In this document: in pieces, positions 6,946-18,650 of the stretch
How the letters are laid out: every line of letters starts with the position of its first letter
Numbering within the stretch: position 1 is the first letter of the stretch
DNA from: Roseateles oligotrophus
GTDB lineage: Bacteria; Pseudomonadota; Gammaproteobacteria; Burkholderiales; Burkholderiaceae_C
NCBI RefSeq assembly: GCF_025717515.1
Contig: NZ_JAJIRN010000003.1
Coordinates: 372,001-436,000, forward strand
Reading direction: 5' to 3'
DNA length: 64,000 bases
Translations under genes and position numbers: made by a program
Notes under the pieces: model-generated
What the model saw: the letters and a program-made list of their open reading frames with translations, nothing else
Told to the model about the DNA's origin: nothing
The model's database searches: none

Positions 6946-7746
6946 TCATTCCTGGCTGATCATGGGATAGCGGGCGGCGATGGCGGCAACAGTGCCGTCG
7001 CGCCGCATCGCGTCCCAGGCTTGCTGCAGGCGCTGACGCGTGGCCTCATCGGTCGGCAGGCTCAGGGCGATAGACGGCCTTGATTCCGAAAACTTCAATA
7101 CCGGCTCGATCAGGCCGGGGTCGAAACCGTATTGCTTCAGCAAGGCTGGAGCTAGAGCGGCGTTCAAGGCCATTAGATCGGTTCGGCCGGCGAAAAAGCG
7201 CCGCAAGAGACTGGCATGGTCGGCGCTGCGGTCCAAGTGTTGAGTTGCATCCAGGCCCAGCGCGACCAGCTCCCGTTCCGATACATCATCCTTGACGACC
7301 CCGATGCGATAGGCGGTCGCCGCATTGATGCTTTCCAGTTTGATCTCGGGGCGGGTTTTGAGTCTGAACAGCGTGCCCCGGCGGGTAGCGATTTGACCCA
7401 GCCAAGAATAGAGTGACTCGCGCTCCGGCAACCGAACAATCGCAGGCACCAATACATGGCCCTCGTTGCGGCTGCGCAGTATCACCCGCGCCCAGGAGTT
7501 GAATTCAAAGGTGGCCGGCAGTTTGGCGCGAGCGAGCAAGTCTTGCGCCAGTTCGAAAGCGTAGCCGACCGGGCGACCATCTACGTCGGTATAGCTATAG
7601 GGCGGCAGCTCCTCCATCAAGACCTTGATCACCGGCCCCCGCGGTGGCTCGATCGGCGTGGCTTGGCTTGTTTGGCTGGAGGCGACAGAGCCACCCAAAA
7701 GCGCAGCGGCCGTGACCAGCGTTACGCGCAAGCAGTTGCGGCGCAT
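6946..7746 (-). CDS. Periplasmic solute-binding protein, family 3 (paralogue A)
   Basis: This is a 266-residue secreted protein of the bacterial extracellular solute-binding family 3. The signal peptide covers about 1-29 (MRRNCLRV then a hydrophobic core). The mature part opens with PPYSYTDVDGRPVGYAFEL, the usual first lobe of these proteins, and ends with the KDGTVAAIAARYP-type motif (here RRDGTVAAIAA). ATG 7746 is chosen over the in-frame ATG at 7800 because it starts right at the signal peptide and gives the same length, 266 residues, as its paralogue at 10439-11239. No permease or ATPase gene is near, so it may serve a distant transporter or a sensory role. It is divergent from the hemolysin-III gene. 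Confidence 0.8.
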   Translation of the reverse strand: MRRNCLRVTLVTAAALLGGSVASSQTSQATPIEPPRGPVIKVLMEELPPYSYTDVDGRPVGYAFELAQDLLARAKLPATFEFNSWARVILRSRNEGHVLVPAIVRLPERESLYSWLGQIATRRGTLFRLKTRPEIKLESINAATAYRIGVVKDDVSERELVALGLDATQHLDRSADHASLLRRFFAGRTDLMALNAALAPALLKQYGFDPGLIEPVLKFSESRPSIALSLPTDEATRQRLQQAWDAMRRDGTVAAIAARYPMISQE

Positions 7747-7854
7747 CGGGCGTCCCAGCTCGTTGGGAACAGAATCGGCAAAGATTGATCTGAATGGCAT
7801 AGAGACCGCAATATGGCACAGCTTTTGGTCATAGACCGTAGGCAGAATCCCAGT

Positions 7855-8493
7855 ATGACTGCACGAGCTCAATCCATCGGCGAAGAAATCGCCAACGCCA
7901 TCAGCCATGGGCTTGGTTTTTTGCTGGCTGTGGCTTCGCTGCCCGTTCTGACCTATTCGGCTGCGCAGCAGGGCTCGATGCGCAATGTGGCTGCGGCCGC
8001 CGTGTTCTCGGTCACGATGATGCTTTTGTATCTGGTCTCGACCCTGTATCACGCGCTGCCAGAGGGCCGCGCCAAGCTATGGTTGAACCGCTTTGATCAC
8101 GCAGCCATCTATCTTTTCATAGCCGGCAGCTACACGCCCTTTGCCCTGGGCGTCCTGCATGGCGGCTGGGGTTGGGCCTTGTTTGGCCTGGTCTGGACCA
8201 GTGCTTTGGTCGGCATGACCGCCAAGCTCTTCGATCGCTTGCGTCATCCCTTGTGGTCGACCGGTTTGTACGTTGCCATGGGTTGGCTGGTCATCTTTGC
8301 ACTGGGTCCCTTGATGGAGCGCATGGCCTCGGCAGGCCTTGCATGGCTGGTGGCCGGTGGTGTGGCCTACACCTTGGGGGCGGTGGTTTTTATGCTGGAC
8401 CATCGGGTGCGCTACGCGCACTTTGTCTGGCATTTGTTCGTGCTGGCCGGCAGTAGCTGCCATTTTGTGGCCGCACTTTGGTATGCCGTCTGA
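7855..8493 (+). CDS. Hemolysin III family membrane protein (PAQR-like)
   Basis: This 212-residue inner-membrane protein has seven predicted helices and belongs to the hemolysin III / YqfA branch of the PAQR superfamily. Characteristic motifs are SHGLG near the start, STLYHALP, the RFDHAAIYLFIAGSYTPF helix, and FVWHLFVLAGSSCHF at the end. The histidines in STLYH and in the last motif are the usual metal ligands. ATG 7855 is favoured because the SIGEEIANAISHG amphipathic start follows at once; an ATG at 7813 would add 14 polar residues. Bacterial members are linked to membrane-lipid homeostasis, and the name hemolysin is historical. It is divergently transcribed from the upstream solute-binding gene. 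Confidence 0.88.
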   Translation: MTARAQSIGEEIANAISHGLGFLLAVASLPVLTYSAAQQGSMRNVAAAAVFSVTMMLLYLVSTLYHALPEGRAKLWLNRFDHAAIYLFIAGSYTPFALGVLHGGWGWALFGLVWTSALVGMTAKLFDRLRHPLWSTGLYVAMGWLVIFALGPLMERMASAGLAWLVAGGVAYTLGAVVFMLDHRVRYAHFVWHLFVLAGSSCHFVAALWYAV

Positions 8494-8498
8494 AAGGC

Positions 8499-9428
8499 CT
8501 ATTGCTCTGCGTCGGCAATGAGCACCTGGTCACGACCCGCTGCTTTGGCTTGGTAGAGTGCCGCGTCCGCGCGCTTGAGCAGGGCCTCGGCTTTTTCGCC
8601 CCAGATGGCTTGGGCCAAACCGGCGGAGCAGGAGTAGCCGCGCGCGGGCTCATTGGCCAAGGGGCGCGACAGCCGCACTCTGGCCAGCAAGCGTTCAACA
8701 ATCGCTTGCGCCTGAGGCAGGCCGGCGGCCGGCAAAATCAGTAGGAACTCCTCGCCGCCGATGCGTGCGCAGCCATCCTCGCGGCGGCTGCCGGCCTGCA
8801 ACAGTCGGGCAAAGTCGCAGATCACCAGGTCGCCGGCGCCGTGACCGAGGCTGTCATTGATTTGCTTGAAAAAGTCGAGGTCGAGTGCGGCGATACAGAT
8901 CGGCCAGTGCTCGCTTTGCGACAGGCTTGTGCGCAGCAGCTGCATGCCATGGCGGCGATTGCTGAGGCCGGTCAGCGGGTCGGTCTGGGCGGCGGCTAGC
9001 GCCTTGACATGGGCTTGGCGCAAGGCGCGGCCGCTCTGGCGCAAGTCGCTGATGTCGCTGGCGACACACAACATGGACCCTTGCAGTTGGGTCGTTTCTG
9101 TCATCCAGATCCAGCGGCCGTCGCAGAGGTCGGCCTCGAAGGCTCGGTAAGGTGTCTTGCCGCGCCGCGAGGTCACCGCCGCCAGCCAAGCATCGATATC
9201 GTCGGTCTCGATGGCCGCCCCGCGCCCGTGAGCATGGTTGTCGCGCATCATGTCCGCCCAAGTCAGCCGTCCGTCGGGTGCGATGACATAGGCTTGGCGG
9301 AAGGCTTTGTTGGCGTAGGTCAACACGTCTTGGGCATCGAAGAGCGCGACCATCAGCGGACTCTGTTCGTGCGCTAGCAGAAAGATGTCGGCCAGTCCCG
9401 CTGGCAAGGGCAAGTCTGCATCTGTCAT
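8499..9428 (-). CDS. PAS-GGDEF diguanylate cyclase
   Basis: This is a soluble 309-residue enzyme predicted to make c-di-GMP from two GTP. A PAS-like sensor domain lies at about 15-130, followed by a short helical linker and a GGDEF domain (about 148-305) opening with DPLTGLSNRR. The active loop is GGEEF near residue 223, which is competent. An RxxD inhibitory site (RRED) sits exactly five residues before it, so product feedback inhibition is likely. There is no signal peptide or membrane segment. It converges with the hemolysin-III gene (6-base gap) and is divergent from the zinc-peptidase gene. The signal sensed by the PAS domain is unknown. Confidence 0.92.
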   Translation of the reverse strand: MTDADLPLPAGLADIFLLAHEQSPLMVALFDAQDVLTYANKAFRQAYVIAPDGRLTWADMMRDNHAHGRGAAIETDDIDAWLAAVTSRRGKTPYRAFEADLCDGRWIWMTETTQLQGSMLCVASDISDLRQSGRALRQAHVKALAAAQTDPLTGLSNRRHGMQLLRTSLSQSEHWPICIAALDLDFFKQINDSLGHGAGDLVICDFARLLQAGSRREDGCARIGGEEFLLILPAAGLPQAQAIVERLLARVRLSRPLANEPARGYSCSAGLAQAIWGEKAEALLKRADAALYQAKAAGRDQVLIADAEQ

Positions 9429-9546
9429 TGACGATTACTCCCGCTGAGGCGAGTATTTTGCTGTAATTTTTTGTCTCGCTGCCGAGTGATTCTCTCGTTA
9501 CGATGCGCACTGAATTTTCTGTCAATGGCAGCAAGAGGAGTCAACA

Positions 9547-10428
9547 ATGAAATGGGAAGACCAGCGCCAAAGCGATAACGTCGAAGATCAACGTGACGGG
9601 GGCGGCGAAGGAGGTCGTGGCGGCATTGCCGGTGGACGTGGGCTGAGCCTGGGCGGCATTGTGATTGCCTTGCTGGCTTCTTGGGCCTTTGGTATCAACC
9701 CGATGACGGTGCTAGGTCTGATGGGTGGCGGCAGCGCACCCGCCCCAGCACCTTCGGCCCAGTCACATTCAGGCGCCAAACCGCAGGATGCGGGCGCGCG
9801 TTTTGTCAGCACCGTGCTGGCCGATACCGAAGATGTCTGGGGCGGCTACTTTGCTGCCCAACAGCAAAAATACCCGCCGCCGGCCTTGGTGCTGTTCCGC
9901 GGCCGCAGCAACACCGGCTGCGGATTGGGCGAGGCGGCGATGGGGCCGTTTTACTGCCCGGCTGATCGCAAGGTCTATATCGATCTGGCTTTTTATGACA
10001 CCTTGCGCGACCGGCTTGGTGCGCCGGGCGACTTTGCGCAGGCCTATGTGATCGCCCATGAGGTTGGTCATCATCTGCAAAATCTGCAGGGCACGACGGC
10101 CAAGATGGACGGCGCCCGGCAGCGCGTGTCGGAGCGAGAGTACAACGCGCTGAGTGTGCGCTTGGAGTTGCAAGCGGATTGTTATGCCGGGGTCTGGGCC
10201 TTCCATTCCCAGCAAAGCAAGGGCTGGCTGGAAAAGGGTGACATCGAAGAAGGCCTGAACGCGGCCGCGCAAATCGGTGACGATACCTTGCAGCGCAGGT
10301 CGCAAGGCATGGTGGTGCCGGAGAGTTTCACGCATGGCAGCAGCGAGCAGCGCACTCGCTGGTTCAAACGCGGCCTGGAGTCCGGGGAATTGAAGGCTTG
10401 CGATACCTTCAAGAGCGGCTCGGTTTGA
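9547..10428 (+). CDS. YpfJ-type neutral zinc metallopeptidase
   Basis: This is a 293-residue member of the putative neutral zinc metallopeptidase family that includes E. coli YpfJ. A hydrophilic Gly/Arg-rich N-terminus (about 1-32) precedes one membrane anchor (about 33-58) and a small Ala/Pro linker. The catalytic domain follows with HEVGHH (H171, E172, H175) and a downstream [13 protein letters not shown], where the Glu or Asp supplies the third zinc ligand. The start ATG has a good Shine-Dalgarno (AAGAGGAG). The function of the family is not established. It converges on the second solute-binding protein gene with a 10-base gap. Confidence 0.9.
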
Positions 10429-10438
10429 CGGATATTGG

Positions 10439-11239
10439 CTAGTCGCTCTTGGCCTGGACAACATAGGGGTGGCGAGCCGCGACGGCCGCCACCGTGCCGT
10501 CCTTGCGCATGCTGTCCCAAGCGGCTTGTAGCTTCAGGCTGATCTCCTGGCTGCCTTCGCCCTTGCTGAGGCCCATGTACAGGCTCACTTCAGAAAGCTT
10601 GGCTTGGGGCTCGATCTGTTTGAAGTCATAGCCCAGTTGTTCCATCACGGCGGCGGCGACGGTGCTGTTGGCGGCGAATAGTTCGTCGCGTTGAATGAAG
10701 AGCTTGCGCAGCATCGCAGCATGATCGGGGCTGCGGTCGAGTTGCTTGCCGAACTCGAAACCCTGGGCCAGCAGGGCGCGCTCCGCCGCGTCCTCGCGCA
10801 CGACCGCAATCTTGTAGACCTTGGCGGCCTCTAAGGTGGGGGCTTGGATTTCGGGGCGAGATTTCAGTCGGTACAGATAGACCCGGCGTGCCGCCGTTGG
10901 ACCAATCCAGTGGAAATGGTGCTCCCTTTCGGGCAAGCGAGCCATGCTGACGACCAAGGTATGGGGGTGGCTGACGGCGCGTTGATATATTCGCGCCCAG
11001 GAGTTGAATTCCGTTTGATGGCTGAAACCGCTGCGCTTGAGCATTTCCTCCATCAATTCAACCGCATAGCCGGCCGGTTTGCCATTGGCGTCGGGGTAGG
11101 AGAAGGGCGGGACGGGTTCGAGCAGGACGGAGAGGGGGGCGGGTCCGGCTTGTTGGGCAGTCGACGCAGAAGGGATGAGCCCCAGCCAAACCGAGCCCAA
11201 AGCCAATACCCTCAGCAACACATCTCGCTTCAACATCAT
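10439..11239 (-). CDS. Periplasmic solute-binding protein, family 3 (paralogue B)
   Basis: This 266-residue secreted protein is clearly homologous to the protein at 6946-7746. Both share PPxSY, the FNSWARI strand, ARLPERE, RLKSRPEI or RLKTRPEI, LDRSPDHA or LDRSADHA, and the closing RKDGTVAAVAARHP. A signal peptide covers about 1-28. Two adjacent ATGs (11239 and 11236) can start it, with a weak GCAGGGC Shine-Dalgarno. No transport genes are adjacent. The pair probably arose by local duplication and then diverged considerably, with a diguanylate cyclase and a zinc peptidase now between them. The ligand is unknown; the family binds polar amino acids and related molecules. Confidence 0.8.
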   Translation of the reverse strand: MMLKRDVLLRVLALGSVWLGLIPSASTAQQAGPAPLSVLLEPVPPFSYPDANGKPAGYAVELMEEMLKRSGFSHQTEFNSWARIYQRAVSHPHTLVVSMARLPEREHHFHWIGPTAARRVYLYRLKSRPEIQAPTLEAAKVYKIAVVREDAAERALLAQGFEFGKQLDRSPDHAAMLRKLFIQRDELFAANSTVAAAVMEQLGYDFKQIEPQAKLSEVSLYMGLSKGEGSQEISLKLQAAWDSMRKDGTVAAVAARHPYVVQAKSD

Positions 11240-11374
11240 GCCCTGCGCTTTCGTGGCCGCTGCGGCCTAGATGTCGATTAAACCGTAAATCCTGAGCTGG
11301 GTGGTCCCGGTTCGGGAATTGGCGCGCGGGCACTCTGGCTGTGCTCTAGAGGCGGAGTCCATGCGTGAGGCTTG

Positions 11375-12454
11375 CTACTGCGCAAACAAGGCCTTGTGGG
11401 CGAGATGGTAGGCAAGCAGTGGCAGCGGCATGCGCAACCAATGGCTGCGCACAAACACCATCCAGTGCGCTAAGCGGGTGCTTGGTCCGAATGCCGACGC
11501 ATGGGCGGGACGCAGGGCATGCTCGAAAATCCATGCGCGCATAAAGCGCGGCCACGGACTTCGGACCTGCGCTTGCAACACAGCAATCACATCGTCCGGG
11601 ATCTGGGTTTCATACAGACGGCGGCATTGCTGGAGTGCATCCAGCAGCGGCAACCCCAGACGAAGATGTTGGGCGCGGGCGACCAAGCCGGGCCAAAATT
11701 CAGCTCGTGCCGAGAAGTCGCTCAGAAGTCGGTGCAGGTCGTAAAGATCGCGCAGGCCTTTGTGAAACTCTCCGAAGAACAGGTGGCAGGCAGAGTGGAT
11801 CACCATGTCGGTCGGCGCCAGCACGCGGAAAAACGACCACTCGCCCGGCAATTGCAGTGCGGAGTCGAAGAGATCTTGAGGATTGGGGCGGATGCCCGAG
11901 GTGGGCGGCAGAATCGTGAAATGGACATCCAGCACGGTGGCACGGTTCTTGTGCTCCATCGGCGGGATTTCATGCATCCATTCGCGGTAATAGCGCTCGT
12001 CGTAGGCATTGGTGTTCGATGGATGCCAGCCAGCCCATGTCAGGTGCTGCTCGACTCCCGGCAAGGCCAGCTTGGGCACGAGAATGTCGATGTCGTTGAA
12101 GATCCGGCCTATCGAGGCCGGGTTGGCCAGCACGCAATAGGCCGCACCCTTCAGCAGCAATACCGGCACATCAAGTAGATGCAAGGCCTCTTGCAGCTCG
12201 CGCAACTCGCTTTGCACAGCGCTGGCATGGCGGGCAGCGATTTCCGCGGCTAGATTCAGGTGGCGTTGCGCTTCCGCTGGAGCGAGCCGCAGAACGTCGG
12301 CGGCATCGAGGGCTAGATGCAGTTGCGCCATCAACTCGGCCGCGCGGCTCTGCCAAACCAGCCTTTCCCAGTCTCGCGTGCCATAGCGCCGAGCTCGCTC
12401 TGGCTGGCGCAGCGTAGCAGTTAACAAATAGGGTTGCGCTGCGATGGGGCTCAT
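11375..12454 (-). CDS. Nucleotidyltransferase-fold protein of HPr-rel-A-like cassette
   Basis: This 359-residue protein has the NTP_transf_5 type of nucleotidyltransferase core. LLKGAAY is at 100-106, followed by GRIFNDIDILVP at 116-127, whose D121 and D123 would bind metal and nucleotide. The rest is mainly helical, with His-rich segments (HSACHLFF). Homologues occur in peptide-modification and capsule clusters and their reactions are largely unknown. ATG 12454 is chosen over GTG 12469 because it forms an ATGA overlap with the stop of the kinase-like gene, indicating translational coupling. It is the last gene of the four-gene operon 11375-14299. Its exact substrate is not inferable. Confidence 0.75.
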   Translation of the reverse strand: MSPIAAQPYLLTATLRQPERARRYGTRDWERLVWQSRAAELMAQLHLALDAADVLRLAPAEAQRHLNLAAEIAARHASAVQSELRELQEALHLLDVPVLLLKGAAYCVLANPASIGRIFNDIDILVPKLALPGVEQHLTWAGWHPSNTNAYDERYYREWMHEIPPMEHKNRATVLDVHFTILPPTSGIRPNPQDLFDSALQLPGEWSFFRVLAPTDMVIHSACHLFFGEFHKGLRDLYDLHRLLSDFSARAEFWPGLVARAQHLRLGLPLLDALQQCRRLYETQIPDDVIAVLQAQVRSPWPRFMRAWIFEHALRPAHASAFGPSTRLAHWMVFVRSHWLRMPLPLLAYHLAHKALFAQ

Positions 12455-13365
12455 GCTGCACTCTGCCACAGGCGTTCAATCTCCGGGATGACTTGATCGA
12501 AGGAGGAATATTGAATGCGCTGCGATCGCACTCGATCGATCAAGCGCCCCAAAGCGTCGAAACCCTCGCCGGCCAGCACCGAAAAATTGAAGGTGTGGCG
12601 AGTTAATTCGATGAAGGCGTGGGCCTGACCTTCGGGCTGACTCAGCAGCGGTGCGCCTGCGCTGTACTTCGGGAATACCAACATGGCCGGCATGGCAGTC
12701 TGGCGCAGCGCCCCCACACTGGCGGTGGGCGGCCGCATATGTGCGACAGAGCCTTTGGCGGTGTCGTGGCAGGCTTCACTGACCACCACTTCGGGCCCGA
12801 ACGCGCGAACGATCCCGATCGAGGCGTTCTTCAGGCTGATCGGGCGGGCAATCGGTCTCACTAAGCCATCGGTCAGCGAAACTAACGCCAACTCGTCGGA
12901 CAGCAAGCGCCAGCCCCGGTGGACTAGAGCGGCGCACAGAGTGCTTTTGCCCGAGCCGGGGTCGGCGGCCAAGATCAGGGCGCGCCCATCGCGTTCCACC
13001 ACAGCGGCATGGATCACCAAGCAGTCATGCGCGTGTGAGGAGATGACCCAGTTCAGCCCCCATTCCAGCATGGCGAAGGCCTGCTCCATCGGCAAGGGTT
13101 TGAAAGGAATACGCCCGTCGCATTTCAATACCACTTGGGGCCGAAATTGTCGGCGCAACCAAGAGGGCGCATTCAGCTCAACCTCAAAATCGACATAGCT
13201 TTTCGGACCCAGCAAAGGAAAGTCGCCATAAAGTTGCAGCAAGCCACTCGCCAGCGTAGGTATATCGGAGCGGAGCTTGACACTGAATGTGCCGCAAGGA
13301 ATCAGCAGGCCGTCAAGCGACAGACATGCCTGCAACTCGGCCTGCGAAAGTTGATTTAACCTCAA
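12451..13365 (-). CDS. HPr kinase-related protein (HprK-rel-A type)
   Basis: This is a 304-residue protein related to HPr kinase/phosphorylase. A non-catalytic N-terminal half (1-110) leads to VIHAAVV (H119), a P-loop DPGSGKST (135-142) and a Walker-B-like SDELALV (156-162), the order found in HprK. There is no PTS HPr gene nearby. It starts with TTG at 13365, whose last bases overlap the stop of the PqqD-like gene (TTGA), so the two are coupled. In the NCBI protein family scheme, as I recall it, such kinases occur with a PqqD-like partner as the HPr-rel-A system, a presumed peptide- or protein-modifying system of unknown chemistry. The match is by domain order and context; the biochemical role is open. 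Confidence 0.8.
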   Translation of the reverse strand: MRLNQLSQAELQACLSLDGLLIPCGTFSVKLRSDIPTLASGLLQLYGDFPLLGPKSYVDFEVELNAPSWLRRQFRPQVVLKCDGRIPFKPLPMEQAFAMLEWGLNWVISSHAHDCLVIHAAVVERDGRALILAADPGSGKSTLCAALVHRGWRLLSDELALVSLTDGLVRPIARPISLKNASIGIVRAFGPEVVVSEACHDTAKGSVAHMRPPTASVGALRQTAMPAMLVFPKYSAGAPLLSQPEGQAHAFIELTRHTFNFSVLAGEGFDALGRLIDRVRSQRIQYSSFDQVIPEIERLWQSAA

Positions 13366-13637
13366 GAGATCGATTCGAGAACTTTGAGCTGGATCAGCTC
13401 TTCGATGAAGTTGCGCGACACCAAAATCAGGCCAGCATTGACCTCAGCGCCGTCCGGAGTCAGTTCGATGCGACCGGGTTCGTCTACAGCGACCACCTTG
13501 AACGGAGCCTTTAGCAGTGGCTCAAACGGTACTGGTAGCAAATGGGTTTCACAGCTTTCGCCAACATGAACAACCATAGCGTCGGCGTAAGCGCGCCATT
13601 TGACGCTTCGACCAAGGCGGAGGTTAAGCTCAGGCAC
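13362..13637 (-). CDS. PqqD-like peptide chaperone of HPr-rel-A-like cassette
   Basis: This small protein (91 residues from GTG 13637) has the length and fold pattern of the PqqD family, which binds a precursor peptide and presents it to a modifying enzyme. Visible features are an N-terminal WRAYADAMVVHV strand pair, GESCETHLLP (typical of the HPr-rel-A-linked PqqD subgroup, where THLL is well kept), and a C-terminal FIEELIQLKVLE helix. No ATG lies at the right place. GTG 13637 is chosen because it gives the family length and sits 14 bases after the stop of the upstream secreted protein. Its stop overlaps the kinase start. The assignment is strengthened more by context than by sequence. Confidence 0.72.
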   Translation of the reverse strand: MPELNLRLGRSVKWRAYADAMVVHVGESCETHLLPVPFEPLLKAPFKVVAVDEPGRIELTPDGAEVNAGLILVSRNFIEELIQLKVLESIS

Positions 13638-13651
13638 AAGTTCTTGTGGAC

Positions 13652-14299
13652 TTATATGCCACCGTGATCCTTGCCATTGCACCAAGTATTGCTGCTCGAG
13701 TAGACGTCGACATGGGTAACGAATGTAGTGAGAGTCCCTCCAGTGCATGCGGCCCGGAAGGCTGCAATGGCGGCCAGGCCATCTGCGTAACCCGCTGGGA
13801 AACGCAGGCCGTAAAACTCGGCATTCAGCAGCGCTGCCACTGCATGCATCGCAGTACTGTCACTAGCATTGAAGTTGTTGAAATAGCCCTTCCCTGGCCC
13901 GGCTTTCTGTTGCGGGAAGACTTGCTCCAAGGTAATGTTGGCTGTGTTTTTAAAGAATGTCACGCCAAACACGGTGTTGAACTTGGCAGTCCGAGGGTAC
14001 TTGGTATATAGCTTTGGTGTTTTATTCCACAAAGCTGTGCCATTTAGGTTTGCCGGGCCCCAGAAACCGGGGCTGCAGCCACAAGGGTTGGCTGTCGCAG
14101 CGCGTGACAAATTACCCGAGGCCAGCTCAGATCCGGTGCAGGAACCCCAACCCGCCACCGCCGAGCGGCTCGGCAGAGACAGCAAGACCGCCGTACCGGT
14201 GACGCTGGCCGTGCCCAAACGGCGCCGACCCTGATCAACCTTGTCGTCCGCAGAGGCTTGTTGGTCGTCACTACCTTTGTCGTTCGTCTGCTCGTTCAT
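13652..14299 (-). CDS. Secreted Cys-containing protein, putative client of HPr-rel-A-like cassette
   Basis: This 215-residue protein of unknown function is the first gene of the operon. A charged N-terminus rich in Gln, Asp and Lys (1-24) precedes RRR (25-27) and a hydrophobic stretch ending AVA at 47-49, which looks like a Tat-like or long Sec signal. The mature part has five cysteines (54, 73, 75, 185, 207) and a CGCSPGFWGP motif at 73-82. This recalls the SPGYW/GYWK motif of some secreted bacterial proteins. A later HAVAALLNAEFYG segment (152-164) fits the conserved helix of the same group. Its position directly ahead of a PqqD-like protein and a kinase suggests it is the modified client; this is inference. 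There is no PEP-CTERM or LPXTG sorting tail. Confidence 0.65.
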   Translation of the reverse strand: MNEQTNDKGSDDQQASADDKVDQGRRRLGTASVTGTAVLLSLPSRSAVAGWGSCTGSELASGNLSRAATANPCGCSPGFWGPANLNGTALWNKTPKLYTKYPRTAKFNTVFGVTFFKNTANITLEQVFPQQKAGPGKGYFNNFNASDSTAMHAVAALLNAEFYGLRFPAGYADGLAAIAAFRAACTGGTLTTFVTHVDVYSSSNTWCNGKDHGGI

Positions 14300-14366
14300 G
14301 GTGTTAAAGCCTCGGTCGATTCAAAATTGGGATCTTGCGGTGCCAGCATCGCCCTTAAGCAGCGCG

Positions 14367-14495
14367 TACACAGCATGCATAGTTGTGTAGCGAGGCGGCG
14401 GAAAATGCTCTACCTTAAAATATTCAGACAGCATTTTGTGCTAAAAAAGCAAGCGCCTAAATGTTCTGTGTAGCGCAAATGATCACAAGTACACA
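14367..14495. promoter_or_regulatory. Cluster of TACACA/TGTGTA hexamers, candidate operator
   Basis: Four copies of one hexamer lie in 129 bases upstream of the secreted-protein operon: TACACA at 14367-14372, TGTGTA at 14384-14389, TGTGTA at 14467-14472 and TACACA at 14490-14495. They form two inverted pairs, with spacers of 11 and 17 bases. The stretch between about 14390 and 14530 is visibly AT-rich compared with the surrounding DNA. The 424-base gap 14300-14723 holds this cluster, a probable promoter for the minus-strand operon, and the structured leader of pssA. I see no gene in it. The binding factor is unknown. Confidence 0.4.
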
Positions 14496-14590
14496 AAACT
14501 CAGGCCAATCTCGCAAAAAATAGCGACTGTTCGCAGTTTCACGGTTCTTGCGGTCCCATTGGACACCATGCCGCCTTCTGGCGATACGGC

Positions 14591-14710
14591 GAAGCCCCCC
14601 TTATATCAGGGGGTAGGGCGCTTCCTTTTCTTCCAAATTCTAGGGGGAGTCCCGGGGCGGTCTACTCTCAGGGGCAAGCCAAAGGCGCTTGGGCAGGCCT
14701 TTGGCTTGCC
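14591..14710 (+). promoter_or_regulatory. Two stem-loops in the pssA leader
   Basis: Two hairpins precede pssA on the plus strand. The first has arms GAAGC 14591-14595 with GCTTC 14620-14624 and CCCCC 14596-14600 with GGGGG 14609-14613. A pyrimidine run (CTTTTCTTCC) follows it, giving a terminator-like shape. The second is a perfect 14-base stem (14673-14686 with 14697-14710) around a 10-base loop and ends 13 bases before the pssA ATG, close enough to affect ribosome access. Pairing is read directly from the sequence; any regulatory role is inferred. Confidence 0.45.
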
Positions 14711-14723
14711 TTATGCTTCGCCC

Positions 14724-15341
14724 ATGACTCGACCCAAACCCTTCTCCATGATCCGCGAGTTCCATCTCGCCGACTGGTTTACCTTGGCGAACTCCTTTGC
14801 CGGCATGGGCGCGCTGTTCTCGGTCATGACGTTCTTGCAGACCGGCGACGTCAAGCATATTTACTACGCCTGCGCCTTGATTCCTTTGGCCTTTGTGTTT
14901 GATGTGTTGGACGGCAGCGTGGCGCGCTGGCGCCAGCAGTCATCGACGATGGGGCGCGAATTGGACTCGCTCGCCGACGTGATCTCCTTCGGCGTGGCCC
15001 CGGCCGCGATTGCATACGCCTGCGGCATGCAGGGCTTGTTTGATCGTATCGTGCTGGTCTTTTTCGTTGCTTGCGGGGTTTCCCGCTTGGCCCGTTTTAA
15101 CGTCACGGCAGAGGCGCTCAGCGAAGGCGGTGACAAGGTCAAATACTTCGAGGGCACGCCCATCCCCACGTCCTTGGTCCTGGTCATCGTGATGTGGATC
15201 GCGGCCGCGCAAGGTGCGCTGGGTGACCAGATGTGGTTCGGCAAGCTGGATATCGCCGGCTTCTACTTGCACCCCCTGGTGCTGCTGTATGCGCTGTCGG
15301 GCTCGCTGATGGTGAGCCGAATCCGCGTCCCGAAGCTCTGA
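14724..15341 (+). CDS. pssA: CDP-diacylglycerol-serine O-phosphatidyltransferase
   Basis: This is a 205-residue integral membrane enzyme that joins CDP-diacylglycerol and L-serine to make phosphatidylserine, the precursor of phosphatidylethanolamine. The CDP-alcohol phosphatidyltransferase signature is complete: DG-x2-AR-x8-G-x3-D-x3-D, seen as DGSVAR followed by MGRELDSLAD. Six or so hydrophobic helices are visible. The later GTPIPTSLVLV segment is typical of bacterial type II PssA. ATG 14724 is chosen because homologues begin close to the FSMIREFHLADWFTLAN segment; the frame is open back to 14559 but that part looks non-coding and contains the hairpins. Confidence 0.88.
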   Translation: MTRPKPFSMIREFHLADWFTLANSFAGMGALFSVMTFLQTGDVKHIYYACALIPLAFVFDVLDGSVARWRQQSSTMGRELDSLADVISFGVAPAAIAYACGMQGLFDRIVLVFFVACGVSRLARFNVTAEALSEGGDKVKYFEGTPIPTSLVLVIVMWIAAAQGALGDQMWFGKLDIAGFYLHPLVLLYALSGSLMVSRIRVPKL

Positions 15342-15392
15342 GCCGCTGACGCTGGCTTGACTTATGGCCCAGTCGGAATTTCGGACCTGTTG

Positions 15393-16490
15393 ATGGGTTG
15401 GCGGTTTAGACTTTTTTTGCGGCGCCTAAGCGCGGCGATGCGGCCAATGCGCGAGCGTGGCTGGGGCCTTTTTGCCGTGCTTTTATTGCACGTACCGACG
15501 GCAACGCTATTGAGGGTGTGGCGGGTATTCGCGCAGCGACTCGACGGTGGGCGCGTGCAACAAGCGTTCAATTTGCGGCGCTTTGTCCGGTTCCAGGGCA
15601 GTCTCCCAAACAGCGCCTTGCCGCGGTTCTATGTCATCGTGATGCCGTTCACCTTGCATTTTCTATTGCCTTGCTTGGCATTGCTGAAAGGGCGGGCAGA
15701 TTTGGTGTTGCTTAGCAACGGCGCACGGCAATGGGAGCGCGATTTGCTGATAAAACGCTTTCCAGATTTGCCGATGTTTGTGTTGCGGACAGTCCCCTGG
15801 GCCAGCATCGAGCACGGCCATGTGATCAATCTGCTGCTGGAAAATCACCGCGGCAACTTCGGCATCATCGACCATGACTGCTATGTGTTTGACGGTGCCA
15901 TATTTGATCAATTGAAACCAGCAGCGGATGAATGCTTGCTCAGTCTTTTTGGCGAAGAGAGCCGCAGCGTTGAGTTCACGTTTCCGCTGACTTTTCTGCT
16001 CTTCTTTAACGCGGAGCCGCTGAGGCTTTTAATGCGGCGGTTTGGTATCGGCGCGCAGCTCTATCGGGAGATACCTCCCTCGGCTCGAAGCGCCATGGCT
16101 CAGATCGGCCTCGGCGAGCGGACTTTTTGGAAGTCGTATCACAACTTCCGTGACACCCTGCATGTGTTGTTGGGAGTGGCACTTGCGCAGGGACAGCAGA
16201 TCAAGTTTCTCTCCTCGCAAGAGGATTTGCCTGCCATGCATGTTGGCGGCACAAGCATCGGAAGTCACCATGCCAAGAGCTTGCCGGCTCTGTATATCCA
16301 CCTGCGCTTTCTTGAATTGCTGAATGATCCCGTGCTGAATCGGCGTTATGCGCATCTGACGGCGCCCTTGCGCGCATCGGCAGACGCGTTGGCACATTGT
16401 GACAGGCAAGATCCGGCGTGGAATGCACTACCTGTCGTCGATACGTTGATGCTTCGCTTGCGGGAGAGGCTGTCCGCGCGCGAGCAATGA
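15393..16490 (+). CDS. Protein of unknown function, possible GT-A-type glycosyltransferase
   Basis: I do not recognise this protein of about 365 residues. It is 16-52 bases downstream of pssA in the same direction, depending on start: TTG 15357 or ATG 15393, neither with a clear Shine-Dalgarno. A basic amphipathic N-terminus and a hydrophobic segment FYVIVMPFTLHFLLPCLAL could associate with the membrane. The stretch NFGIIDHDCYVFDG has a hydrophobic strand ending in DHD, as in the DxD metal site of GT-A glycosyltransferases. A later MHVGGTS followed by H-K and a Tyr/Leu-rich helix is also seen in some glycosyltransferases. This is a weak, motif-level suggestion. The CDS is real by its length and codon use. 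Confidence 0.6.
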   Translation: MGWRFRLFLRRLSAAMRPMRERGWGLFAVLLLHVPTATLLRVWRVFAQRLDGGRVQQAFNLRRFVRFQGSLPNSALPRFYVIVMPFTLHFLLPCLALLKGRADLVLLSNGARQWERDLLIKRFPDLPMFVLRTVPWASIEHGHVINLLLENHRGNFGIIDHDCYVFDGAIFDQLKPAADECLLSLFGEESRSVEFTFPLTFLLFFNAEPLRLLMRRFGIGAQLYREIPPSARSAMAQIGLGERTFWKSYHNFRDTLHVLLGVALAQGQQIKFLSSQEDLPAMHVGGTSIGSHHAKSLPALYIHLRFLELLNDPVLNRRYAHLTAPLRASADALAHCDRQDPAWNALPVVDTLMLRLRERLSAREQ

Positions 16491-16520
16491 TGCTGATCGA
16501 GCAAGGGGCAGAGCTCTGAA

Positions 16521-16558
16521 AAAAGAAAAGTCCGGACACCGATCACGGTATCCGGACT
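16521..16558 (-). terminator. Intrinsic terminator for the glc operon (minus strand)
   Basis: A 13-base stem (16529-16541 with 16546-16558, one mismatch) encloses an ATCA loop. Read on the minus strand it is followed by TTTTCTTTTTTC, a U-rich tail. It lies about 160 bases past the glcF stop and just beyond the convergent unknown gene. The plus-strand side lacks a T-run, so it mainly serves minus-strand transcription. The rest of the gap 16491-16716 holds nothing recognised. Confidence 0.7.
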
Positions 16559-16716
16559 CATCTGGCTGGCTGGCCTGGTTCAGTTTAGGCTGGCTGGCTT
16601 GGGGCCCTCGTCGGCGTCCCCCTCCTGTATTTGTGGCCAATTATGGGAATTTGGTTTTTCTGTGGTCTTGGTGTTTGCCCTGATGCGTGCGGTAAGCGCA
16701 CTATTCATGGCGACTA

Positions 16717-17958
16717 TCAGACCAGTGCCTGATCCAGCGCCTCCACCCAATGCTGGACCGGTGTCGCGGTGCCGCTTTGCAGGTGCTGAATACAGCCAAT
16801 ATTGCCCGAGACGATGGCCTGCGCATGCAGCGGCGCCAGGGCCTGCAGCTTCTGGTCGCGCAACTGCTTGGACAACTCGGGCTGCAACACCGAGTAGGTG
16901 CCGGCCGAACCGCAGCAGAGATGGCTGTCGCAACTGGCCAGCTGCACATCAAAACCCAGTTCACGCAGCCCCGCCTCGACGCCGCCACGCAACTGCTGGC
17001 CATGTTGCAAGGTGCAGGGTGGGTGATAGGCCAGTTTTTGCTGTGCGCCGTTCAGTAATGGCTTCAGCAGAGGCAGCAGATCGGGCAGCAATTCACTCAG
17101 ATCGCGGGTGATCGCGCTGATCTTGGCGGCTTTGGTGGCGTAGTCTGGGTCGGCGCGCAAGGCGTGGCCGTAGTCCTTGACCATAAGGCCACAGCCGGAC
17201 GCATTCATGACCAGCGCTTCGATCTTGCCGGCCTCGGTCAGGCCTTCAACCAGCGGCCACCAGGCGTCGATATTGCGGCGCATGTCGGCCAAGCCGCCGG
17301 CATGATCATTCAAATGGCTGCGGATCGCGCCGCAGCATCCGGCGCCCTCGGCCACCAGGGTTTGAATGCCTGCAGCGTCCAGCACACGAGCCGTCGCGCT
17401 ATTGATATTGGGCGCCATGCTGGGCTGCACACAGCCGATCAGCAGCCCAACCTTGCGGTCATGGCTGCGAGTCGGCCAGTCAAGCGCGCGTGCGCTTGTC
17501 GCCGTCGGGACCTTGTCCTTCAGGCTGTCGGGCAGCAGCGGACGCAGCCATTGGCCCAGCTTCATCGCGGGTTTGAAGGCGGGGGAGGTCAGGCCTTCTT
17601 TCAGCAGCCAGCGCACGGCTCGTTCCTGCCTCGGCCGCTCCACCTTGGCCTCGACGATGCCACGGCCGATCTCCAGCAAAGCCCCATATTGCACACCCGA
17701 AGGGCAGGTGGACTCGCAGTTACGGCATGTCAGGCAGCGATCCAGATGCAGCTGGGTGCTGCGCGTCGGCTCGACGCCTTCCAGAACTTGCTTGATCAAG
17801 TAAATGCGGCCGCGCGGTCCGTCCAGCTCGTCGCCCAGCAATTGGTAGGTCGGGCAGGTGGCGGTGCAGAAGCCGCAATGCACGCAGCGGCTCAGAATGG
17901 CTTCGGCCTCGGCGCCAACCGCGCTGCCTTGGAATTCGGGGGCAAGTTGGATTTGCAT
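16717..17958 (-). CDS. glcF: Glycolate oxidase iron-sulfur subunit
   Basis: This 413-residue subunit carries electrons from the FAD subunits of glycolate oxidase, which converts glycolate to glyoxylate. Two [4Fe-4S] motifs are near the N-terminus, CVHCGFCTATCPTY and CLTCRNCESTCPSG. Two cysteine-rich CCG domains follow, with CCGAIRSH and CCGSAGTYS. The start ATG 17958 overlaps the stop of the upstream methyltransferase gene by one base (TGATG), so a longer reading from 18006 is rejected. It is the last gene of phaM-glcD-glcE-methyltransferase-glcF. Confidence 0.95.
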   Translation of the reverse strand: MQIQLAPEFQGSAVGAEAEAILSRCVHCGFCTATCPTYQLLGDELDGPRGRIYLIKQVLEGVEPTRSTQLHLDRCLTCRNCESTCPSGVQYGALLEIGRGIVEAKVERPRQERAVRWLLKEGLTSPAFKPAMKLGQWLRPLLPDSLKDKVPTATSARALDWPTRSHDRKVGLLIGCVQPSMAPNINSATARVLDAAGIQTLVAEGAGCCGAIRSHLNDHAGGLADMRRNIDAWWPLVEGLTEAGKIEALVMNASGCGLMVKDYGHALRADPDYATKAAKISAITRDLSELLPDLLPLLKPLLNGAQQKLAYHPPCTLQHGQQLRGGVEAGLRELGFDVQLASCDSHLCCGSAGTYSVLQPELSKQLRDQKLQALAPLHAQAIVSGNIGCIQHLQSGTATPVQHWVEALDQALV

Positions 17959-18650
17959 CAGCGCAGGCGGTACTTGAGGGTCCAGAAATAGTCGAGCTCT
18001 TGCCATTCGATGTCTTGCGCGTCTGCGTCCAGCAGCGTGTGCATTTGCCCAAACCTGGGGAAGTTCTTCAGTACCTCATGCTGGCTGCCGTCGTTCAGGC
18101 TGCGCATCTGGTAGCCATTGCCCTGCGCGTCGACGCGCGAGATCGGCGTGCTGTCGCCGGCCACAAAACGGTTGTCCATCAAGATGACCGTCGCGCCCGG
18201 TGCCAATTGCGCATGCAGCTGAGCTAACCAAGCAGCTTGGCGGTGCAGCGGTATATGCGAAAACCACAGGCCGGCGAAGGCGGCATCAAACGGCGATTTC
18301 GCACCCACGGGCACGAGATCCAGGGCGTAGGCATCGGCCAAGCGAAAACTCAGCTTTGAGAAATCAAGCGATTTGCTCTTGGCGACTTCCAGCACCTCGG
18401 CATTGATATCGGTGCATTGCCAGCTCAAGGCATCGGCGGAGGCAGCCGGCAGCCAAAAACCGGTGCCGGTCGCCACCTCCAGCACATGGCGGCCGCTGAA
18501 CTGCTCGCCCAGCCATTGTTTGAGCGTGGCGATATTGGGCTGGCGGTGCGGGCGCGCAAAGACTTGTTCGTATTCGAGCGCGCGTTGCGCGTAGTAACGA
18601 GGCATTTGCTCGGTCATCGAAACATCGGCGCTGGGTTCAAAGTTCGTCAT
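17958..18650 (-). CDS. Class I SAM-dependent methyltransferase inside the glc operon
   Basis: This 230-residue protein has a class I methyltransferase fold. The SAM-binding motif I is VLEVATGTGFW, the acidic end of strand 2 is CTDIN, and motif IV is FDAAFAGLWFSHIP. It is embedded between glcE and glcF with overlaps at both ends: 14 bases with glcE, and one base with glcF. It is therefore translated with the oxidase subunits. ATG 18650 is used; ATG 18617 is an alternative that would remove the overlap with glcE. The substrate is unknown, and the family resembles small-molecule or lipid methyltransferases. Glycolate oxidation does not require a methyltransferase, so its presence here is unexplained. 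Confidence 0.82.
   Translation of the reverse strand: MTNFEPSADVSMTEQMPRYYAQRALEYEQVFARPHRQPNIATLKQWLGEQFSGRHVLEVATGTGFWLPAASADALSWQCTDINAEVLEVAKSKSLDFSKLSFRLADAYALDLVPVGAKSPFDAAFAGLWFSHIPLHRQAAWLAQLHAQLAPGATVILMDNRFVAGDSTPISRVDAQGNGYQMRSLNDGSQHEVLKNFPRFGQMHTLLDADAQDIEWQELDYFWTLKYRLR

Follow-up and report, generated by a model that had tools for sequence, protein, structure and literature searches.

Is the secreted protein encoded next to an HPr-rel-A kinase the substrate, or client, of the enzymes that follow it? This question is raised by a 64,000-nucleotide stretch of the Roseateles oligotrophus genome (contig NZ_JAJIRN010000003.1, positions 372,001 to 436,000; hereafter the window). Four tightly packed genes run there on the minus strand from 14299 to 11375, in the order client, PqqD-like protein, HprK-related kinase A and NTP_transf_5 nucleotidyltransferase, and this four-gene operon is real and intact. 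A preliminary description, made from the sequence alone, assigned the PqqD-kinase pair to HPr-rel-A, rightly so: the kinase exceeds the cut-off of the NCBIfam model TIGR04352 and relatives of the PqqD-like protein match TIGR04353. As far as the literature and databases were searched, HPr-rel-A has so far consisted of a kinase and a PqqD-like protein, without a substrate. The same description cast the secreted protein as the client of the pair. This holds as an association with the kinase, while the leader binding and the chemistry of the cassette are inferred.

Client and kinase among related genomes

In a sample of 299 genomes of close relatives (the family sample), TIGR04352 matches 81 genomes and exceeds its cut-off in 73 of them, with 76 over-cut-off matches. 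Used alone as a query, the window client is found in eight of these 299 genomes, each time no more than about 2 kb from a kinase that exceeds the cut-off. As this single-sequence search was too close-range (2 of 69 candidate stretches, 8 of 299 genomes), an alignment profile was adopted, with at most 10 candidates scored per genome; at an E-value of 0.001, it matches 95 of the 299 genomes. A full-length client is present in 72 of the 73 kinase genomes and in none of the 226 others; the former count is partly obtained by construction, because the profile was built from clients located beside kinases, and the latter is not. The other 23 matched genomes contain leader-only, core-only or short matches, which were excluded from the client count, and the sole kinase genome not counted for a client (G261, locus L070) has its locus at a contig end. 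The link between client and kinase thus holds as an association, with strict co-occurrence in the family sample, which answers the test of tracking with the kinase/PqqD pair set beforehand by the preliminary description. Homologues commonly devoid of kinase/PqqD neighbours, also considered in that description, are not seen for full-length clients; the core domain alone does recur elsewhere, in giant open reading frames (ORFs). Owing to the co-occurrence in 72 of 73 kinase genomes, the chemistry of HPr-rel-A becomes directly testable by mass spectrometry.

All 76 over-cut-off kinase loci were read. Every one of them carries the transferase gene, and 74 carry a PqqD-like ORF (the weakest, in L071, at E 0.042); those without are L077 and L078, the latter at a contig end. 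The client is found in 74 loci, upstream in 71 and after the transferase in three (L034, L055 and L107). Both clientless loci end at contig ends: L070 retains the tail of a client of the second type described below, and the genome of L078 (G205) carries a client on another contig, 386 bases from its end. In these counts, L066 is included as a client locus and L079 to L083, whose kinases fall below the cut-off, lie outside the 76. When the clients were held out by halves and searched for among 8,935 ORFs, after the wrong-frame long ORFs of L045, L049 and L100 had been removed from the profile seeds, 30 of 30 held-out clients were recovered in each direction, with close relatives in both halves; everything else that matched was either an additional client or one of the small ones in L080, L081 and L083. 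Two loci, L045 and L100, each have two tandem clients ahead of the PqqD-like gene.

Beyond the close relatives, a phylum sample of 299 genomes includes 51 with a kinase over the cut-off, and 48 of these 51 were fetched as loci (G000 and G114 were already covered, G469 is partial). A client occurs in 41 of the 48 loci, five of which (L208-L212) were recognised by eye and then checked. Different cores follow similar leaders. Besides the type-1 core of the window client, a second type, found in 22 phylum loci, ends near SCWxSF and has a leader like ARRRxLLKGxAAGVPxxxTLxSGAALA. The third type, that of L208-L212, has a leader resembling those of the twin-arginine translocation (Tat) pathway and ends in TCFASLQMPRG. 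A profile restricted to the leader, built on 60 clients from the family-sample loci and similar ones (L068, L074 and L075 have type-2-like cores), gives 101 matches among 13,192 distinct ORFs. Sixty lie in the seed loci, all of them clients, and the other 41 are of client type (including type 2 and the small clients that neighbour other HprK-like kinases in L080, L081 and L083), save an odd partial match in L050. Part of this leader-profile signal is simply Tat.

In L079, L080, L081 and L083, the HprK-like kinase does not reach the TIGR04352 cut-off, and between it and the PqqD-like gene lie short ORFs of 69-105 amino acids from stop to stop, whose leader resembles RRxFVKRGAYVAPAILTLAAAPxFAKAGS. 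These loci look like another variant of the cassette, one with small clients.

The four proteins and their operon

The coordinates of the four genes and of their main features are collected in Table 1. What the preliminary description had read in the letters is present in the sequence and borne out by the coordinates: the four-gene layout with its 14-base gap and its TTGA and ATGA overlaps, a secreted protein with an RRR-type leader, five cysteines and CGCSPGFWGP, a PqqD-sized second gene, the P-loop of the kinase and the DID centre of the transferase (NDID, residues 120-123). The 14 bases separate the client from a PqqD-like frame starting with GTG at 13637. The first ATG of that frame, at 13748, would make it overlap the client, and the short form is preferred because the alignment with relatives fits it. 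TTGA (13365-13362) is common to the PqqD-like stop and the start of the kinase, and ATGA (12454-12451) to the kinase stop and the start of the transferase. No sigma-70-like promoter pattern was found, by a scan that is weak evidence.

Table 1. Genes of the cassette and conserved features of their products (positions in the window)
Feature	Position	Strand	Remarks
Client, type-1 core, Tat-like leader, 215 amino acids	13652..14299	minus	
Client leader, residues 1-49: polar N-tail, RRR, hydrophobic stretch, SAVA	14153..14299	minus	putative cleavage after A49
Client Arg25-Arg27	14219..14227	minus	R25 in 75/76, R26 in 76/76 aligned clients
Client Cys54-Ser61, candidate acceptor serines	14117..14140	minus	C54 74/76; Ser/Thr at 57 73/76; Ser/Thr at 61 74/76
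Client CGCSPGFWGP, residues 73-82	14054..14083	minus	local form of a C-G-x-S-P-G-x-W-like motif; P77 55/76, W80 58/76
Client Leu158-Asn159, near-invariant	13823..13828	minus	73/76 and 70/76
PqqD-like (RRE-type) protein, 91 amino acids, GTG start	13362..13637	minus	predicted fold weakly resembles lasso B1 leader binders
HprK-related kinase A, 304 amino acids, TTG start	12451..13365	minus	TIGR04352
Kinase P-loop DPGSGKST, residues 135-142	12940..12963	minus	G137, G139, K140, S141, T142 invariant
NTP_transf_5 nucleotidyltransferase, 359 amino acids	11375..12454	minus	PF14907
Transferase D121-x-D123	12086..12094	minus	invariant in 77/77 aligned sequences
Transferase D176	11927-11929	minus	invariant in 77/77 aligned sequences

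The clients are very divergent. In an alignment of 76 of them (A1, from which L048 and L066, a duplicate of L032, were omitted), mean column identity is 14% and identity to the window client ranges from 15 to 59%. The cysteines of the window client are at positions 54, 73, 75, 185 and 207. Alanine or glycine occupies column 49, just before the putative cleavage site, in 75 of 76 clients, so that the clients have the sequence traits of Tat substrates (a twin arginine and this small residue); the Tat profile models each match just one client of 76, weakly. Neither Pfam nor NCBIfam has a family matching the window client, and the 76 clients gave only weak single matches to these databases, belonging to no known family. 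For this reason, they are given no PEP-CTERM label either. A structural model predicted for the window client has a mean predicted local distance difference test (pLDDT) score of 74, with ten-residue blocks from 71 to 200 at 79-95; a fold search of the PDB with this model returned 13 hits, the best at E 3.6 and none at E 0.001. The possibility that type 1 has its acceptor serine at the C-terminus, like lasso peptides, was also weighed and is unsupported; 19 of 77 clients have a serine among their final three residues.

The client core also recurs without leader, as a module of ORFs that span about 1,300-4,500 amino acids. In L218-L222, the core domain (e.g., GFWKNH...WPETG...ALLN) lies, often in two copies, inside such giant ORFs. 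The one ORF that was scanned combines it with SdrD_B and SpaA domains, a company which suggests that the client core could be an extracellular structural domain.

The kinase of the window scores 358.3 bits against TIGR04352 (cut-off 200) and the transferase 157 bits against PF14907 (cut-off 31). Besides the P-loop residues, H119, D157 and E158 of the kinase are likewise invariant in 77 aligned kinases, and H119, K140 and D157 align with HPr kinase. In the transferase, the aspartates D121, D123 and D176 are presumably catalytic, as judged from the nucleotidyltransferase fold. Both enzymes look active from these conserved residues. The trio H119/K140/D157 also recalls the His-Lys-Asp-Asp set of the lasso kinases, as given in the accessible part of PMC9266682.

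The PqqD-like protein of the window was aligned with relatives (A2, 33 members in all). The NCBIfam model for the PqqD family peptide chaperone of the HPr-rel-A system, TIGR04353, matches 31 of them at E 0.1 or better, and the window copy is one of the two unmatched members. Searched against PDB profiles, this copy has two lasso B1 proteins as its top hits (TfuB1, E 0.0076; TbiB1, E 0.045). Its structural model (pLDDT 83.5) is paired by Foldseek with TbiB1 bound to a leader peptide at a probability of 0.95, yet with an E-value of 0.25. The two methods agree, and the PqqD-like protein would thus weakly resemble the leader binders of lasso peptides.

Precedents, proposed mechanism and alternatives

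Two known kinds of ribosomally synthesized and post-translationally modified peptides (RiPPs) offer precedents. The first is that of the linear polyphosphorylated peptides (LPP) of Bacillota. According to the available part of PMC13381572, their precursors of 35-200 amino acids have a conserved N-terminus and a variable C-terminus, and their clusters, found in polysaccharide loci, encode a discrete leader-binding protein, an HprK-like kinase, a nucleoside triphosphate (NTP) transferase, a SipW-like signal peptidase and an MsbA-like transporter. In the same text, the kinase LppK, together with LppB, a RiPP recognition element (RRE) protein, polyphosphorylates the core at Ser3, immediately past a leader that contains the motif YxxPxVLxHQ. 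The window cassette likewise combines an HprK-like kinase, a discrete putative RRE and an NTP transferase, the RRE part with weak scores. It differs by its Tat-like leader and by its core, a conserved domain of about 165 amino acids. Neither a SipW-like signal peptidase nor an MsbA-like transporter was detected with Pfam among the seven window neighbours; the other loci were not scanned gene by gene.

The second precedent is that of the lasso peptides paeninodin and pseudomycoidin, for which the accessible part of PMC9266682 reports that the kinases PadeK and PsmK phosphorylate a serine of the precursor. For pseudomycoidin, this phosphorylation comes first, and PsmN, a nucleotidyltransferase homologue, then puts a hexose on the phosphoserine. 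As proposed for the window cassette, a kinase and a nucleotidyltransferase homologue act on a serine of a leader-bearing precursor, with a B1 leader binder (PMC9266682). The candidate serine of the window client is beside the leader, unlike the C-terminal one of lasso peptides, and neither an asparagine-synthetase-like cyclase nor a B2 protease is present in the window operon or its seven neighbours. The window client is also far larger than a lasso core. Near some type-2 loci, an asparagine-synthetase-like ORF was named by eye.

The enzyme set, that is a kinase, a leader binder and an NTP transferase, is therefore already known, and the preliminary description overstated its case in speaking of an undescribed modification system, as far as the parts of PMC9266682 and PMC13381572 that were available show. 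HPr-rel-A is among the closest known systems, and the window kinase is a member; the window PqqD-like protein is below detection by its model and the 76 clients match no client family of NCBIfam or Pfam. In a provisional literature search, with most subscription journals and preprint servers out of reach, no paper was found on HprK-related kinase A, HPr-rel-A, TIGR04352 or TIGR04353, none naming PF14907 or NTP_transf_5, and none joining three of the terms XrtA, exosortase A, nucleotidyltransferase, twin-arginine and PqqD. Within that scope, the client family, its Tat-like leader, the core swapping and the exosortase link provisionally appear to be new.

This last link comes from co-occurrence. 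A high-scoring exosortase-A-like protein is encoded by 70 of the 73 kinase genomes of the family sample and 9 of the 226 others (Fisher p 4.5e-54), at a threshold of about 220 bits chosen post hoc; the curated cut-off gives an exosortase in 126 of the 299 genomes. In the phylum sample, an exosortase passes the curated cut-off in 20 of the 51 kinase genomes and in 21 of the remaining 248 (p 2.6e-7). These statistics, like the counts of client and kinase, ignore shared ancestry in both samples. The co-occurrence with the XrtA/PEP-CTERM system is near-exclusive in the family sample, and many type-2 loci adjoin XrtA-associated glycosyltransferase genes of the TIGR03087 type, an ORF cluster (one member scanned) that is present in 20 loci, most of them of type 2. 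The exosortases of the window genome are on other contigs (C45 and C54) than the cassette. Moreover, an ORF for a tetratricopeptide repeat (TPR) sulfotransferase is found in 12 type-2 loci (L173, L180-L182, L190, L193-L195, L198 and L200-L202; one member scanned, PF13469, E 2e-49). In all 12, this ORF comes immediately after the kinase gene, in the same orientation, and in all seven where a transferase was found it precedes the transferase, which suggests a further modification.

Taken together with the co-occurrence of client and kinase, these precedents make it likely that the locus is a RiPP-like cassette of client plus enzymes, with a substrate the size of a protein. The PqqD-like protein would bind the client leader and bring the client to the enzymes. 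The kinase would then phosphorylate a client serine just past the leader, most likely Ser57 or Ser61, i.e., positions 8 and 12 after a putative cleavage at A49. More speculatively, the nucleotidyltransferase-fold enzyme could next add a nucleotide or a sugar, probably onto the phosphate. These three steps are proposed by analogy with the lasso and LPP systems. Judging from its leader, the client is probably exported via Tat, which carries folded proteins, and could work outside the cell, probably in an exopolysaccharide/exosortase-A context, a setting proposed because of the exosortase co-occurrence. A broader model, to which slightly less than even weight would be given, makes a single N-terminal segment both the recognition leader of the PqqD-like protein and a Tat signal. 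The swapped folded cores behind it would be phosphorylated, receive a sugar, a nucleotide or, given the sulfotransferase of the 12 type-2 loci, a sulfate and be exported as an exosortase-A-tied matrix component, in a system widespread within one bacterial phylum. With such a client, the RiPP logic of tailoring by a kinase would extend from peptides to exported protein domains and gain a new link to the exosortase-A/exopolysaccharide system.

Several observations weigh against this modification cassette. Seven of the 48 phylum kinase loci show no client; among these, L215 stops at a contig end, L213 has the PqqD-like gene only, and L185, L186, L199, L205 and L216 are without both a PqqD-like match and a client. 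Twelve of the 48 have no nearby transferase, at least two of them (L188 and L217) being cut by contig ends. The window PqqD-like protein has no match in Pfam or NCBIfam, nor to TIGR04353 at E 1, and TbiB1 is only the fourth Foldseek hit, behind an unrelated protein, with no hit at 0.001. Neither YxxPxVLxHQ nor, in the first 70 residues, [YW]xxPx[LVIAFY] occurs in any of 77 clients. For LPP, the available part of PMC13381572 mentions no detectable activity of LppN in a heterologous host. Finally, the whole-client profile gives weak matches to Tat-like leaders at large, so that the leader may be conserved for the sake of export and not of PqqD binding. As a separate observation, genes that resemble sugar metabolism genes by eye lie upstream in L186 and L199.

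In an alternative explanation, the PqqD-like protein is a Tat export chaperone that shields or proofreads the signal peptide, while the kinase and the transferase regulate export or modify another substrate, for example an exopolysaccharide precursor. The Tat-like nature of the leader fits this view, as the leader-only matches that were scanned include DctP, multicopper oxidase, molybdopterin-binding, dioxygenase and phosphoesterase proteins, and so do the near coincidence of kinase genomes with high-scoring exosortase-A-like genomes and the glycosyltransferase genes adjoining many type-2 loci. It is nevertheless unlikely, given that near-invariant serines follow the client leader and that the client tracks the kinase almost perfectly among close relatives. 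HPr kinase itself acts on a serine, that of HPr. The characterised HprK-like kinases also act on a precursor serine of lasso peptides and LPP (available parts of PMC9266682 and PMC13381572).

Alternatively, the transferase could nucleotidylate the client directly, the kinase homologue just supplying ATP-driven remodelling or a phosphate intermediate. The invariance of the three transferase aspartates and the presence of the gene in all 76 family loci would suit such a role. The order of events in pseudomycoidin, kinase first and hexose on the phosphoserine afterwards, argues in the opposite direction (available part of PMC9266682), as do the 12 phylum loci, some at contig ends, that keep the kinase without a nearby transferase, and this explanation seems highly improbable. 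As for a chance neighbourhood, in which an unrelated secreted protein happens to precede the PqqD/kinase pair, the divergence of the clients and their absence from known families (0 of 76) would allow it, and the genome counts, the eight single-query genomes out of eight, the 74 loci of 76 and both hold-outs contradict it so plainly that it is hardly tenable.

Inheritance and genomic surroundings

The loci L032, L033, L064 and L069 are the nearest to the window for kinase, PqqD-like protein, transferase, leader and core alike. Genome G144 holds two different cassettes, and its window-like one is nearer to the window (kinase 68%) than to its genome-mate (41%), for all five parts. Correlations of distances between parts range from 0.19 to 0.69, above 200 permutations, with a contribution of shared ancestry. 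These patterns of relatedness fit an inheritance of the cassette as a unit.

The seven neighbours scanned with Pfam (6949-18006) encode two solute-binding proteins, a diguanylate cyclase, a zinc peptidase, a CDP-alcohol phosphatidyltransferase, an iron-sulfur protein and one protein without a Pfam match. From 12001 to 16000, the G+C content of the window dips to 0.577, against 0.61-0.65 elsewhere in it, which may hint at a horizontal arrival of the cassette. A gene for a YpfJ-type neutral zinc metallopeptidase lies near the cassette, in the window (9547-10428) and in 18 further loci (a cluster of 19 loci); it may be a mere marker of a common insertion site.

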